A stretch of DNA of 42,444 bases from an uncultured bacterium. Its GTDB lineage: Bacteria > Patescibacteriota > Minisyncoccia > Moranbacterales > GWC2-37-73. Shown piece by piece: positions 5,879 through 35,766 of this stretch. How positions within the stretch are numbered: position 1 is the stretch's first letter; each line of letters starts with the position of its first letter. The stretch lies in contig CAIOVI010000030.1 in NCBI GenBank assembly GCA_903861715.1, forward strand, positions 1-42,444, written 5' to 3'. The notes below the pieces were generated by a model. It saw nothing but the letters and a program-made list of their open reading frames with translations, did no database searches and had not been told where the DNA came from. The position numbers and the translations under genes are program-made.

Positions 5879-5986
5879 ACTACGAATTACGAATTACGAA
5901 TTTTACGAATGTACGAATAGAATGCAAATTTATTTAGCCACTTAAAATTAACAAAAATAATAAAAAATATAACAACATAAAACAAT

Positions 5987-13842: not shown

Positions 13843-14298
13843 ATGAAAAAACAGGCAACCAAGAAAACTTATTCCGAAGATTATGTTGGGGCTATGCTTG
13901 AAGAAATCCGAAGCGACTTCAAGGTTTTTGGCGAGGGGCTTAATGGCGTTCAAAAAAGTTTGAATGATTTTAAGGCTGAAACTGAAGCTAATTTCGAAAC
14001 GTTGTTTAGATTTAGAGATGAGACTAAAGCTAATTTTGAAACTTTGTTTGAGTTTAGAGACGAGACTAAAGCTAATTTTGAAAAATTATTTGAATTTAAG
14101 GCTGAAACAAAGGATAACTTTTCGACAACGCTGGACTATCTTTCCAGGATAGACGATGAAATTACTGATATTAGAGCTGAATTAGAGAAAGGAAAAAAGG
14201 CTGGGAAAATGGAAGAAAGTTGGTTTAAGAAAATTGAGCAGAGAGTTTCAATAATAGAAAAGCAGTTAAAAAATCAGAAGAGTTTAGCAATAAAATAG
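13843..14298 (+). CDS. Coiled-coil protein with 14-aa tandem repeats
   Basis: FRDETKANFETLFE-FRDETKANFEKLFE-FKAETKDNF; start likely ATG 13843. Confidence 0.6.
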   Translation: MKKQATKKTYSEDYVGAMLEEIRSDFKVFGEGLNGVQKSLNDFKAETEANFETLFRFRDETKANFETLFEFRDETKANFEKLFEFKAETKDNFSTTLDYLSRIDDEITDIRAELEKGKKAGKMEESWFKKIEQRVSIIEKQLKNQKSLAIK

Positions 14299-14309
14299 TT
14301 TTTAAGAAA

Positions 14310-14585
14310 GGCAATGAGGGAGCTATCACTCTCTCGCCCAGGTGAAATCTTCGCTTTGCGAATTTCGCTGGGCAGGCTATGCGAAGAAAATCGCCAAGGA
14401 GGCGAAAAGTAGAACGCATCGGGTAGGCCCGTAACAGCCGGAAAGAGTCATGGAACATGGAACATGGAACATGTAGCAAATTTGATTTTTGCTCTATGCT
14501 CTATGCTCTATGTTTTGTGAGAATTAAGGTGGTACCACGGAATCATTTCGTCCTTATGCATTTTTTGCGTAGGGATTTTTTTGAT
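14310..14585 (+). promoter_or_regulatory. T-box leader upstream of ileS
   Basis: AAAAGTAGAACGcatcGGGTAGGCCCGTAACAGCC stem I/II-like segment, T-box motif AAGGTGGTACCACGG (14525-14540), terminator TCCTTATGCA-tttt-TGCGTAGGGA plus T run; followed by ileS. Confidence 0.88.
14551..14582 (+). terminator. T-box terminator stem and U-tract
   Basis: TCCTTATGCA / TGCGTAGGGA with G-U pairs then TTTTTTT. Confidence 0.75.
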
Positions 14586-14707
14586 CCCAACTAAAATACT
14601 AATCTCATACGAATATACTAATAATAAAAAACACATTCGTATATTAGTAAAAGATTAGTAAATTAGTGGGGTAAATATATAATTTAAATTAATAAACCAT
14701 AAATAGT

Positions 14708-23923: not shown

Positions 23924-24049
23924 AATCACATAAACATATAAACATAAAAACAGGGGAGCGGTTAGTTATTAGACTATCTAATTATTATATAATCTAACCG
24001 TCTAATCATTTAAGCACTTAAACATTTAATCATGTAAACAATGTAAACA

Positions 24050-24108
24050 ATGCTTGTATGATTACATGCTTGTATGATTTTATGATTGTATGTTTAAATG
24101 AGGCTATG
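24050..24108 (+). repeat. 8-bp ATG-octamer array ending at the tgt start codon
   Basis: ATG at 24050, 24058, 24066, 24074, 24082, 24090, 24098, 24106, exactly 8 nt apart. Confidence 0.9.
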
Positions 24109-28205: not shown

Positions 28206-28296
28206 ATGTTTAAATGTTTAAATGCTTAAATGCTTGTATGCTTAAATGACTCCCTGTTTGCATGTTTATATGGTTATATGTTTAAATGTTTATATG
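28206..28296 (+). repeat. 8-bp ATG-octamer array ending at the folD start codon
   Basis: ATG at 28206, 14, 22, 30, 38, 46, (CTG at 54), 62, 70, 78, 86, 94. Confidence 0.9.
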
Positions 28297-29274: not shown

Positions 29275-29331
29275 AACGATTAGCTAGTTAAATTAAGTTC
29301 AATGTAACAATGTAATAGTTTGGCAATTTGT

Positions 29332-32259
29332 ATGAGTTATAACCCAAAAGAAATTGAAAAGAAATGGCAGGAGCGCTGGGAAAGTGCCGGTCTATATAAA
29401 GACTACAGTCGAGCAAAGAAATTCTATGCGCTGGATATGTTTCCGTATCCTTCGGGCGCAGGCCTTCATGTGGGACATCCGAAGGGCTATATTGCCACGG
29501 ATGTGGTTAGTCGTTTCAAGATGCTGCAAGGATATAGCGTGCTGCACCCGATGGGCTGGGATGCTTTTGGGCTGCCGGCGGAAAACTATGCGATTAAAAA
29601 CAAAGTGCATCCAAGTGTGGCAACTGAGAAAAACATTGCAACTTTCAAAAAACAACTTGAAGCTTTTGGTTTCACTTATGATTGGGACAGAGAAATTGAC
29701 ACGACCGATCCGGCTTATTACAAATGGACCCAGTGGATTTTTTTGAAAATGTTTGAAAAAGGTTTGGCGTATGAATCCAATGAACCGGTCAATTGGTGTC
29801 CAAGTTGCAAAACCGTGCTTTCCAATGAAGATTTGGAAAATGGTCTTTGCGAACGTTGCGGCACTCAAGTGGTGCAGAAAAGATTGCGCCAATGGGTTTT
29901 GAGAATGACCGACTACGCCGAGCGCTTGTTGGCTGACTTGGATAGTCCAGAAATAAATTGGGAGGAATCAATCAAGGAGCAACAGAGAAATTGGATTGGG
30001 CGCAGTGAAGGAACTCAATTTAAAATGTCTGTAGCGACAAATGGAGGCTCAACCTCCATTATGGAGGTTGAGCCTCCAACGCTGGCTGAGGGAAATTATA
30101 TTGAGTTTTACACAACTCGGCTTGATACGGTTTTCGGTATGACTTACGCCGTAGTGGCGCCAGAACATCCTATTCTGGAAAAACTCAAATCACAAATCAC
30201 AAATTACAAAGAGGTTGAAGATTATCTTATTGCTTCACAAAATAAAACAATTTTGGAACGCACGGAATTGCAAAAAGAAAAAACGGGCGTGAAATTGGAA
30301 GGCATTGAAGTTGTGAATCCTTTTAATAATGAAGCTGTGCCGCTTTTTGTGGCGGATTATGTTTTGGGCGGCTATGGAACTGGCGCCGTGATGGCCGTGC
30401 CGGCGCACGACGAAAGAGATTTTGAATTTGCCAAGAAATATGATTTGCCGATTGTTCAATCGATAGCACCACTTCTGCTTGAAACTCAGGGAAATGCTGC
30501 GGTTCGAGAAGGTCTTGATTTTGATAGAAGAAAAACCGTCGTTGTGATTGTTAAGCATTGGTTTGAAAATAAATATTTCTGTCTTGATTGGCAAAAATTT
30601 GGTTGGAAATCTTTTGTTATTGGTGGCGTTGAAGATGGTGAGATGAATGAAGATGCCGCTATTCGTGAAGTCAAAGAAGAAACTGGATATCAAGATATTA
30701 AAAGTATCACTAAGATTGGAGGCAATGTGCATAATTGTTTTTTTGCTGCTCACAAGGGACTTAACAGATACGCAGACACAGAGTGTTATTTAGTTGAATT
30801 GGGAAGTGATCAATTCATTGAGCCTGACTTTGAAGAAGTGAAAAATCATATCGGAGTTTGGATTGAGGAAGAAAAACTGGGAGATTATTTAAGCATAGAT
30901 CTCCATAAAAAATATCATAGCATTTTTAGTGGTGGAGAATCTGCCTATGTGGAAGATGGAGTGTTGGTTAATTCTGGTGTATATACTGATTTAAAATCGG
31001 CTGAGGCGCGTGAAAAAATGACAGTATGGTTGGAGGAAAATAGACTCGGCCAGAAAAAAGTTAATTTCAAAATGCGGGATTGGATTTTTTCGAGGCAGCG
31101 CTATTGGGGCGAGCCGATTCCGATTGTGCACTGCGAAAAATGCGGAGCGGTCGGAGTGCCGGAAGAGCAATTGCCAGTGCGGCTTCCAGAGGTTGAAAAC
31201 TATGAGCCGACTGGCACGGGCGAATCTCCTTTGGCGACAATTGCTGATTGGGTCAATACCACTTGTCCAAAATGCGGTGGGCCTGCCAAAAGAGAAACCA
31301 ACACCATGCCCCAATGGGCTGGATCATCATGGTATTATTTGCGCTACATTGATCCGAAAAATGACGAACGACTTATTGATCAGCAATTGGAAAAAGACTG
31401 GATGCCAGTTGATCTCTATGTTGGTGGAGCAGAACACGCCACAAGGCATTTGCTATACGCGCGTTTTTGGCACAAATTTTTGTTTGATCTTGGTGTGGTG
31501 ACGACCAGTGAACCTTTCAAGAAATTGATGCACGTGGGACTTATCTTGGCGCAGGATGGACGCAAAATGAGCAAGCGTTGGAACAACGTGATCAATCCTG
31601 ATGAAGTGATTGAGCAATTTGGGGCTGATTCCATGCGGCTTTATGAAATGTTCATGGGACCATTTTCGCAGAGCATTGCTTGGAGCACCAATGGAGTGGT
31701 TGGCACAAGAAAGTTTTTGGAAAAAGTTTGGAAACTACAAACAAAAGTCAACAATCAATATTCAACAGACAATAAAAAAATCCAGACCTTGTTACATAAG
31801 ACAATTAAGAAAGTGACGGGGGATATTGAAAATTTCAGATTTAACACAGCGATTTCGCAATTGATGATTTTGGTTAATGCTTTTGAGAAAGAGTATGCGA
31901 AAAGCGCAACTACGAAAGCGCACATGCGAAAAGAGGATTATGAGAAATTGCTTTTAATTCTCTCGCCTTTCGCGCCGCACATCGCTGAAGAACTTTGGCA
32001 GCAGCTTGGGCATGAGCAATCAATCTTTTTGGAAAAGTGGCCAGTGGCTGAAAATCAATATCTGAAGGATGAAGAAATTGAAATGGTGGTGCAGGTCAAC
32101 GGAAAAGTTCGCGAGCGTTTGATTGTTGCGATTGATGTGACGGAGGATGAAGTCAAAGAAACCGCTTTGGAAAGTGAGAAGGTCAAGGTTTTTACGGAGG
32201 GAAAAGAAATCAAAAAAGTGATTTTTGTGCCAGAGAAATTAATAAATATAGTTATTTAA
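29332..32259 (+). CDS. leuS: Leucyl-tRNA synthetase with a Nudix domain inserted in the CP1 editing domain
   Basis: FPYPSGAGLHVGHPKGY, TTRLDTVFG, VPAHDERDFEFA, FSRQRYWGEPIPI, GRKMSKRWNNVINP; Nudix box GGVEDGEMNEDAAIREVKEETGY. Confidence 0.95.
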   Translation: MSYNPKEIEKKWQERWESAGLYKDYSRAKKFYALDMFPYPSGAGLHVGHPKGYIATDVVSRFKMLQGYSVLHPMGWDAFGLPAENYAIKNKVHPSVATEKNIATFKKQLEAFGFTYDWDREIDTTDPAYYKWTQWIFLKMFEKGLAYESNEPVNWCPSCKTVLSNEDLENGLCERCGTQVVQKRLRQWVLRMTDYAERLLADLDSPEINWEESIKEQQRNWIGRSEGTQFKMSVATNGGSTSIMEVEPPTLAEGNYIEFYTTRLDTVFGMTYAVVAPEHPILEKLKSQITNYKEVEDYLIASQNKTILERTELQKEKTGVKLEGIEVVNPFNNEAVPLFVADYVLGGYGTGAVMAVPAHDERDFEFAKKYDLPIVQSIAPLLLETQGNAAVREGLDFDRRKTVVVIVKHWFENKYFCLDWQKFGWKSFVIGGVEDGEMNEDAAIREVKEETGYQDIKSITKIGGNVHNCFFAAHKGLNRYADTECYLVELGSDQFIEPDFEEVKNHIGVWIEEEKLGDYLSIDLHKKYHSIFSGGESAYVEDGVLVNSGVYTDLKSAEAREKMTVWLEENRLGQKKVNFKMRDWIFSRQRYWGEPIPIVHCEKCGAVGVPEEQLPVRLPEVENYEPTGTGESPLATIADWVNTTCPKCGGPAKRETNTMPQWAGSSWYYLRYIDPKNDERLIDQQLEKDWMPVDLYVGGAEHATRHLLYARFWHKFLFDLGVVTTSEPFKKLMHVGLILAQDGRKMSKRWNNVINPDEVIEQFGADSMRLYEMFMGPFSQSIAWSTNGVVGTRKFLEKVWKLQTKVNNQYSTDNKKIQTLLHKTIKKVTGDIENFRFNTAISQLMILVNAFEKEYAKSATTKAHMRKEDYEKLLLILSPFAPHIAEELWQQLGHEQSIFLEKWPVAENQYLKDEEIEMVVQVNGKVRERLIVAIDVTEDEVKETALESEKVKVFTEGKEIKKVIFVPEKLINIVI
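30043..30077. repeat. 35-bp palindrome, copy 2 (in frame in leuS)
   Basis: GGAGGCTCAACCTCC-attat-GGAGGTTGAGCCTCC; encodes GGSTSIMEVEPP. Confidence 0.95.
30466..30945 (+). other. Nudix hydrolase domain insertion in LeuRS
   Basis: Segment between LPIVQSI and AYVEDGVLVNSG; the box GX5EX7REVXEEXG is at 30622-30690. Confidence 0.9.
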
Positions 32260-33056: not shown

Positions 33057-34085
33057 ATGCAAAGAAAAAAAATTGTGACAATTGGGGGTGGAAATGGGAG
33101 TTTCACTTTGCTCAATGGCCTGAAAAAATATTCCGTGGATTTGACGGCTATTGTTTCCATGACTGATAATGGTGGCTCAACTGGAGTTTTGCGCGATGAA
33201 TTGGGGGTGTTGCCGCCAGGAGATGTGCGGCAATGTTTGGTGGCGCTGAGTGATTCTTCGCAAATGCTGCGAGAGCTCATGAATTATCGTTTTGAAGAAG
33301 GGGGCCTGAAAGGTCACAGTTTTGGTAATCTTTTTCTTTCAGCGTTGGAAAAAATAAATGGAAGTTTTGCCAAGGGCGTTGAGGAAGCAGTGCATATTTT
33401 GAATGTGAAGGGTGAGGTAGTGCCGGTGCTTGATCGGGATACAAATATTTTATTCGAACTTAAAAATGGTGAAAAAATAGCAGGCGTTTTCGATGTGGAT
33501 CATAGCTTTGATTTGACCAAAGTTGGCCTCAAAAAAGCCTCCCTTTTTCCAAAAGCAAAGGCCAGCCAGAAAGCAATCGAAAAAATCTTGGAAGCTGATT
33601 TGATTGTGATTGGCCCAGGGCATCACTATTGCAGTATCGTTCCTAACTTATTGGCAACTGGTATTCCTGAGGCAATTAGGCAGTCAAAAGCCGTGGTGGT
33701 CTATAATTGTAATTTAGTCAATAAGCAAGGACATAATGATGGTTTTTCTTTGGATGATTATGTGACTGATATTAATAAATATCTTGGAGGTGAGCGGATT
33801 GATTTTGTGACTTTCAACAGTCAAAAGCCAGCTGCCTATTTGATTAAAAAGTATGCAAATCAAAAAGAATTGTTGGTGAATTTTTCGAAGGAGGAAAAAG
33901 CTGACAGAAATTATAAAATCGTGAGAGCGGATTTGCTTAGCGGTGAAAAACCGAGTTATAGTAAAGCTGATGTGCATGCCAGTCGCCGAGCTTTCATCCG
34001 TCATGATAGCGATAAATTGGCAAAAGTTTTGATGATGATTTTAGAAATGGGTGACCGCGAAAATATTATTAAAGAGATCATCTAA
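33057..34085 (+). CDS. yvcK: YvcK/CofD-like (gluconeogenesis factor) protein
   Basis: IVTIGGGNGSFTLLNGLKKYSVDLTAIVSMTDNGGSTGVLRDELGVLPPGDVRQCLVALS. Confidence 0.92.
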   Translation: MQRKKIVTIGGGNGSFTLLNGLKKYSVDLTAIVSMTDNGGSTGVLRDELGVLPPGDVRQCLVALSDSSQMLRELMNYRFEEGGLKGHSFGNLFLSALEKINGSFAKGVEEAVHILNVKGEVVPVLDRDTNILFELKNGEKIAGVFDVDHSFDLTKVGLKKASLFPKAKASQKAIEKILEADLIVIGPGHHYCSIVPNLLATGIPEAIRQSKAVVVYNCNLVNKQGHNDGFSLDDYVTDINKYLGGERIDFVTFNSQKPAAYLIKKYANQKELLVNFSKEEKADRNYKIVRADLLSGEKPSYSKADVHASRRAFIRHDSDKLAKVLMMILEMGDRENIIKEII

Positions 34086-34258
34086 TCATATAATCATATA
34101 AACATCTAAACATTTAATCATCTAAACATTTAATCATCTAATCATATAATCATATAAACATCTAAACATTTAATCATCTAATCATCTAAACATTTAAACA
34201 TATAAACATATAATCATTTAAACATCTAAACATCTAAACATCTAAACATTAAATCATT
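34083..34258. repeat. 22 tandem degenerate octamers TAAWCATH
   Basis: 22 consecutive 8-bp units with no indels (last unit AAATCATT), then reverse-oriented ATGCTTGT/ATGCTTAC/ATGATTAT units up to ATG 34291. Confidence 0.95.
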
Positions 34259-34290
34259 TTGATTACATGCTTGTATGCTTACATGATTAT

Positions 34291-35766
34291 ATGAAAATAA
34301 GGATGTCTGAATCAAAACAAAATCAAACAAATCAAAATGATTCTCAGGTGAAGTTGCTTTCGCTGTCGGAATTTCGACGTGAGTTGGGAATTCCACTCAT
34401 TTTGGCAAAAAAATTGATTGTTTGGGGTGAGATCCAGTCGGTGCGAGCCTTGGATGGAACGCTGCGAATTGCGGCGCCAGAAATTGCGGTGGCCAAAAAA
34501 CTCATTGGCACGCCAATTGGCAAGGTGAGACTTTTTGTCAAAGCGCTTGGGCCAGGGCTTATCACTGGCGCTTCAGACGATGATCCTTCTGGCATTGGAA
34601 CCTATTCAGCCGTGGGCGCAACTTTTGGGCTCTCAATTTTGTGGATGGCAGTGTGGCTGTTGCCAATTGTGACTGCCATTCAAGAAGCTTGTGCTCGCAT
34701 TGGAGTGGTGACAAACAAGGGTTTGGCTGAAGTTATCAAGCAGCATTACAGTCGAAAAATTTTGCTCGGAGCCATCACGCTACTGATCATCGCCAACGTG
34801 GTGAACATCGGAGCCGATCTTGGCGCGATGGCCGCCGCTATTGGCATGTTTAGCAACATCAATTCCTATCTTATTATTATCTTGCTAACAGTCGGGATAA
34901 CTTTGTTGGAGATTTTCGTGCAGTATCATTTTTATGTGAAATTTTTGAAGTTTTTGGCTGTTTCGGTTTTGGCTTATGTGATCACTGGTTTTTTGGTTCA
35001 TCCTGATTGGCTGGATGTTTTCAAGCATTCTTTCATTCCAAGCATAAGGTTTAGCAATGACTATTTATTTGCTATGGTGGCAGTTTTTGGCACCACTATC
35101 ACGCCTTATCTTTTTTTCTGGCAAGCTTCGGAAGAAGTTGAAGAAGGCAAGTTGCTTGACTACAAATATAAAACAAAAAAAAGACTGATTGATCGGATGG
35201 CGCACATGCGAACAGACGTCTACACGGGGATGCTTTTGGCAAACGTGGTTTTTTATTTTATTGTTTTGACAACGGCGCAAGTGCTTTTTGCGCATGGTAT
35301 CACCAGCATCAACACCGCGGCTGACGCTGCCAAAGCCTTGGCGCCTTTGGCCGGCAAAAATGCCGCCGCCCTGTTTGCTTTTGGCATCATCGGCACAGGA
35401 CTACTGGCTATTCCAGTTTTGGCTGGCAGTGGAGCTTATGCGCTTTCGGAGGTGCTTAGTTGGAATGAGGGATTGGAATTCAAATTTTTGCAAGCCAAGG
35501 GATTTTATTTGATTATTATTCTCTCCATTGTCTTTGGCGCTTTGTTTAATTTTTTCCAGATCAATCCCATTATGGCGCTCTATTACGCGGCTTTTCTAAA
35601 TGGGATTATTGCTATTCCGCTTTTATATTTGATCATGAAAATTGGGAATAGACGGGATATTATGGGGGATGAATGTCATCCCGGTTGGGTGAAATTTTTC
35701 GGTTGGTTTGCGGTCGTGGCCATGACTATTGCGATTGTGGTTATGATTGTGATGAGTTTCGTTTAG
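34291..35766 (+). CDS. NRAMP-related divalent metal transporter (start probably ATG 34291 or 34303)
   Basis: VKALGPGLITGASDDDPSGIGTYSAVGATFGLSILW, multiple TM helices, TTITPYLFFWQASEEVEEG. Confidence 0.9.
   Translation: MKIRMSESKQNQTNQNDSQVKLLSLSEFRRELGIPLILAKKLIVWGEIQSVRALDGTLRIAAPEIAVAKKLIGTPIGKVRLFVKALGPGLITGASDDDPSGIGTYSAVGATFGLSILWMAVWLLPIVTAIQEACARIGVVTNKGLAEVIKQHYSRKILLGAITLLIIANVVNIGADLGAMAAAIGMFSNINSYLIIILLTVGITLLEIFVQYHFYVKFLKFLAVSVLAYVITGFLVHPDWLDVFKHSFIPSIRFSNDYLFAMVAVFGTTITPYLFFWQASEEVEEGKLLDYKYKTKKRLIDRMAHMRTDVYTGMLLANVVFYFIVLTTAQVLFAHGITSINTAADAAKALAPLAGKNAAALFAFGIIGTGLLAIPVLAGSGAYALSEVLSWNEGLEFKFLQAKGFYLIIILSIVFGALFNFFQINPIMALYYAAFLNGIIAIPLLYLIMKIGNRRDIMGDECHPGWVKFFGWFAVVAMTIAIVVMIVMSFV

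Follow-up and report, generated by a model that had tools for sequence, protein, structure and literature searches.

An octamer array between yvcK and an Nramp gene

The window analyzed here, a stretch of 42,444 nucleotides from an uncultured bacterium of the Moranbacterales, contains a yvcK-like gene followed by a gene for an Nramp-family transporter, and two facing arms of an 8-bp repeat lie between them (Table 1). Reading the forward arm unit by unit agrees with the earlier note, which had described 22 in-register octamers varying at positions 4 and 8 and, in the last unit, at position 1. The 8-bp register is unbroken through all 22 units, and a de novo TRF run likewise returns a period of 8 with 22 copies. 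Non-consensus bases are distributed over the eight unit positions as 1, 0, 0, 10, 0, 0, 0 and 13, with A (12) and T (10) at position 4, C (9), T (7) and A (6) at position 8, and a single position-1 change in the last unit; an even spread of variation over the unit positions is rejected (0/100000). Units 8–12 repeat units 1–5 (permutation p 0.004), a recurrence that is a sign of block duplication. The window matches the three-unit pattern 22 times, whereas 100 dinucleotide shuffles gave no match. The reverse units that had been placed directly after the forward arm are present, except that TTGATTAC, a reverse unit with one mismatch, precedes ATGCTTGT (34267); the reverse arm comprises this imperfect unit and three good ones, ending at ATGAAAAT (34291).

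In the first octamer, the TAA slot is the native stop codon of yvcK (34083-34085), and the YvcK C-terminus, KEII*, is retained in relatives that have no array. At the other end of the junction, the first in-frame ATG past the reverse arm, at 34291, is in 8-bp register. Either this codon or ATGTCTGAA (34309) may be where the Nramp gene truly begins, and the start in relatives lies near the second of these positions. A promoter scan of the locus was uninformative, giving 5 sites compared with 3.3 expected.

Table 1. Octamer arrays and flanking genes in the window.
Feature	Position	Strand	Description
yvcK-like gene	33057..34085	+	CofD family; Pfam CofD 3e-82
Forward octamer arm	34083..34258	+	22 units: 21 perfect TAANCATN, last AAATCATT; polarity away from yvcK
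Reverse octamer arm	34259..34290	-	TTGATTAC (one mismatch), ATGCTTGT, ATGCTTAC, ATGATTAT; minus-strand units read away from the Nramp gene
Nramp-family transporter gene	34291..35766	+	Pfam Nramp 2.6e-73
Array before tgt	23925..24105		Looser, two-armed; occupies the whole stop-to-start gap; unrelated small palindrome within
Array before folD	28206..28293	-	Reverse units only; directly upstream of folD

The looser inverted layout that had been noticed ahead of tgt is also present, and the start of tgt (24106) is in register with it. The same holds for the start of folD (28294) and the array upstream of that gene, and folD-upstream arrays are found at the same place in the genomes G001, G002, G003 and G017. 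Rfam 15 gave no match at gathering score across the whole window.

A dispersed and lineage-restricted repeat family

The yvcK–Nramp array is the largest member of a dispersed octamer family. Arms located with the core motif contain 537 units, which give the consensus NHAADCAT (ATGHTTDN in reverse), in which position 5 is nearly devoid of C and position 2 nearly devoid of G. Selection by core motif favors the core, and we therefore recomputed the consensus on segments chosen by 8-bp periodicity, themselves taken from loci collected by motif: the core positions are 82–92% fixed, and the commonest base at positions 1, 2 and 5 accounts for 43%, 63% and 48%. Many unit types with one core are also seen when periodicity alone picks the segments. 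Permuted cores at period 8 gave 0–6 arms in the same loci, a weak comparison since these had been chosen for AANCAT.

The host assembly (1.28 Mb in 63 contigs) contains 43 matches to a strict three-unit pattern, compared with 5 for the reversed control, and 96 matches to the looser pattern AANCATNNAANCATNNAANCAT, compared with 12, in more than 20 places. At least one match is present in all five other sampled species of the host genus and also in G017, which belongs to a different genus of the same family; most other relatives have none. Across the phylum, a four-unit match occurs in 4 of 380 genomes, each from a separate family. A scan of GTDB species representatives returned 106 stretches, which outside Patescibacteria mostly consist of one or two unit types, whereas most of those in Patescibacteria have at least three. 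Array statistics rest on the stretches around motif-found loci. Other short-period repeats, of the ATTNGT type and heptamers, are found in the same genomes.

The earlier note considered the variation to be unlike ordinary microsatellite decay. On decay itself the claim stands, with many unit types sharing one core across many loci and species, and with the same octamer in other phyla occurring mostly as arrays of a single unit type; the wider reading that went with it is partly supported.

Polarity and register at gene edges

The arms follow a rule that goes beyond those first observations, namely that they point outward from the gene edge which they abut. Of the 49 arms lying no more than 15 bp from a predicted edge, 47 have outward polarity, reading NNAANCAT in the direction that leads away from the gene; the outward units are NTAANCAT after stops and ATGNTTAN before starts. 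Pooling orthologous edges leaves 33 of 35 outward within this distance (18 start, 15 stop). At 16–60 bp 3 of 8 arms are outward, and at distances above 60 bp no bias is left (16 of 29). Inward-reading arms are few; one of them, at L188, is an array of 19 units lying between a promoter-like box and the start of a gene. Two loci from two species (L188 and L205) carry a long forward array directly past a TACAAT promoter-like box and before the gene start, an arrangement that breaks the outward rule.

The gene edges come from a simple ORF-based prediction, and ORF calling could itself favor outward polarity, given that reverse units offer ATG in all frames and forward units frequently do the same with TAA. 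It is nonetheless very doubtful that the arrays are plain microsatellites with neither function nor rule and that their polarity is a gene-calling artefact. Whole-unit turnover and decayed copies would fit such an origin, as would the occurrence of the same octamer in many bacteria as simple one-unit-type arrays that change by whole units. However, the variation is position-specific, the yvcK–Nramp array varying at positions 4 and 8 and not at all positions, and arrays elsewhere in the family combine several unit types with one core. The polarity also holds at stop edges alone (17/18), which are independent of start choice, but is absent when the same caller is applied to the octamer arrays of other bacteria, which have one or two unit types (6/24 outward). 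The 11 diverse arrays from other Patescibacteria families were too few for a polarity test.

Of 18 stop codons, 14 share the register of the TAA slot or fall one base ahead of it. The first in-frame ATG past the ATG of the last unit is in register in 12 of 29 (orthologues unpooled), and register is thus weaker at start codons, where the calls are uncertain. Overall, the octamer family is lineage-restricted and sited on the non-coding side of intact gene edges.

Facing arms and RNA folding

Facing arms might pair in the transcript to form a hairpin that acts as a terminator, attenuator or mRNA stabilizer. The arms do face each other at all 18 two-armed loci, drawn from six genomes, and the RNA folds at the yvcK–Nramp locus (z -3.1) and the tgt locus (z -4.1) both beat shuffles, with the predicted fold weakened when one arm is flipped. 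Nevertheless, we judge this function to be quite unlikely. When units are reordered inside their arms, the folding is as good or better (mean z +0.85, Stouffer +3.6), which by this modeling is no sign of selected pairing, and the unit's free positions carry no pairing signal. Many arms are single, 22 forward units stand against 3–4 reverse ones at the yvcK–Nramp locus, and no terminator-like site was found there. The array had been called self-complementary, which is true only in part and in a weak sense, in that its arms face each other; the unit order can be permuted at no cost to the folds. Because permutation keeps or improves the folds, the facing layout would need no pairing function, and it looks like a by-product of edge anchoring.

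Arrays in related species

Among the relatives compared, the host species alone has the 22-unit array at the yvcK–Nramp junction. G001, G002 and G004, with YvcK proteins 88–91% identical, have a different degenerate repeat of the ATTCGTGA/CACGAAT type at this position, G003 has two units, G012 has a few imperfect units and the others have a short spacer. At other junctions, common to G001, G002 and partly G004, the arrays keep their location, and most differences between them amount to whole octamers, for example 7 versus 4 units before a 547-aa gene, with the proviso that the name-matched relatives are metagenome-assembled and their unit counts may be wrong. The folD- and tgt-upstream arrays are present in several species, decayed in some and absent in others; several species that lack the folD array have a TATAAT-like box at that position. 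The earlier note would have abandoned its reading had relatives varied at random at all eight unit positions or lost the register through indels, and the outcome is mixed: related species differ by whole octamers, but some arrays show decay of the core.

The termini of YvcK, Tgt, FolD and a flippase are unaltered by the arrays. We considered and rejected the idea that arrays replace gene ends or supply new stops or starts, since the checkable termini are intact. Likewise rejected was a reading of the ATG-rich arms as N-terminal peptides, since the Tgt and FolD starts lie downstream of the arms, as judged by array-less orthologues. In three species (L033, L182, L201) an octamer array lies upstream of mraZ, beside the DnaA-box-like TTATCCACAGG; a role for it as a replication origin marker was dropped, the flanking gene having been read as MraZ by eye.

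REP and BIME elements are dispersed intergenic inverted sequences and to that extent are like the octamer arrays. A transposase or similar enzyme might place the arrays by mobile or templated insertion, as RAYTs do with REP sequences, and it would suit this model that one junction holds different repeat families, or none, in close relatives. We nonetheless regard it as highly improbable. Hits to the Y1 transposase family (TnpA_REP, PF01797) do not track array number, being absent from the array-rich G017 but several in the array-poor G003. The arms, of 3–22 units and with many single, have no fixed ends or length and form no fixed-length imperfect palindrome of ~20–40 nt as REP units do, and the unit differences are stepwise.

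Proposed growth of the arrays from gene edges

The explanation that we tentatively prefer, with confidence somewhat short of even, is that this tandem-repeat family extends outward from native start and stop codons by whole-unit slippage, its core being kept to suit translated edges. We infer that arrays would nucleate on the edge codon, using the TAA slot at a stop and the CAT/ATG slot at a start, and would extend outward through replication slippage or unequal exchange. The polarity, the register and the facing arms would all follow if arms were anchored in this way at edge codons and grew away from them. The near-fixed core AA-N-CAT may be retained because the repeats would sit in mRNA leaders and trailers, where in all three frames stops would be supplied by the forward unit and starts by the reverse unit, and growth at the edges might be tolerated or be mildly useful to translation. 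Counting for this proposal are the in-place orthologous arrays, the block duplication, the polarity and its absence from the control arrays, the stop register, the facing arms, the fixed core with its free positions and the intact termini. Against it stand the weak register at starts and the few inward arms. Slippage alone also leaves unexplained why more than 30 edges use one and the same octamer instead of various octamers containing TAA or CAT. One octamer shared by so many edges therefore points to a constraint at the level of the unit.

The main rival to outward growth from the edge codon is a unit-binding protein. On this view a sequence-specific protein would recognize each octamer, as RNA or as DNA, and regulate or mark edges, with clustering giving avidity; a binding-site proposal has been made by MacGregor for TAACTGA repeats (PMC4679880). 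We consider this a credible possibility, if a rather doubtful one. It would account for the sharing of one core, alongside three free positions, by many unrelated loci in two genera, for the near-exclusion of C at position 5 and of G at position 2, and for a polarity specific to edges. Against this, the distribution is patchy, species differing by gain or loss of the array even where the gene is an essential housekeeping one, the putative protein has no candidate, and the cores decay in some species. A bolder proposal, which strikes us as unlikely, is that the octamers form a gene-edge punctuation system in Patescibacteria, in which the ribosome or a bound factor would read them unit by unit in leaders and trailers, and stop-rich trailers and AUG-rich leaders would set translation via an evolvable unit number.

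Relationship to known repeats

TAACTGA direct repeats are found in marine Beggiatoaceae, Cyanobacteria and Bacteroidetes (MacGregor 2015, PMC4679880). They resemble the octamer family in being short tandem units dispersed in intergenic regions and patchy across distant lineages, in standing for the most part immediately ahead of start codons that lack a ribosome-binding site, in having housekeeping genes with no functional theme as neighbors, and in a forward unit that holds stop codons. They differ in having a period of 7 and a constant unit, with 2–6 copies in Beggiatoaceae, whereas the Moranbacteria family has period 8 and the unit NHAADCAT. The strand that points towards the start codon is stop-bearing in the TAACTGA repeats but ATG-bearing in the octamer family. 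The former are mostly before starts, whereas the octamers use both stop and start edges. Facing arms are common among the octamers, whereas the genome described for the TAACTGA repeats has only one inverted set.

The P6b loop of the cyanobacterial tRNA-Leu(UAA) intron contains degenerate heptanucleotide repeats with arms that pair in the P6b stem (PMC3488679). Such heptanucleotide repeats and STRR sequences share with the octamers degenerate units, whole-unit copy-number change and two arms able to pair, but they have period 7 and lie inside an intron stem, whereas the octamers have period 8 and lie at gene edges. The octamer family resembles both systems in growth mode and is a member of neither. 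We found no counterpart to its strict orientation rule; otherwise it resembles known intergenic repeat families. In the open-licence literature we found no report of the octamer family itself and no relevant papers on such repeats in Patescibacteria.

The family offers a testable case of tandem repeats ordered by gene boundaries, with a polarity and register opposite to those of the closest described family found. Should the repeats function in mRNA, a change in the number of units would be a means of tuning housekeeping genes, and this in a group where genetics is almost lacking. Annotation calls for caution, as N-termini such as MLVCLHDYMKIRMS or MITCLYDFMIVCLNEAMTF are probably repeat read-through in these genomes; they are suspect because the arms carry ATG in every frame.

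Other features of the window and related genomes

Small contigs of G002 and G005 (L184, L195, L215) contain several copies of a diverged module of ~100–240 bp, each copy carrying a short octamer array beside small ORFs. In the window, a T-box leader precedes ileS (14260-14558; Rfam RF00230, E 6.5e-9, below gathering score), and inside it two heptamer repeats, CATGGAA / ATGCTCT, face each other (14449-14512). A second degenerate repeat family, with ACNAAT/ATTNGT units in facing arms, occupies 14590-14672 between the T-box and ileS, and TACGAAT units are present at 5881-5918. The CACGAAT/ATTCGTG repeat that replaces the octamer array at yvcK–Nramp in three relatives is of the same type. In the leucyl-tRNA synthetase (29320-32259), residues 404-520 match a NUDIX domain (Pfam 1.3e-9), an insertion that follows the editing-domain match.
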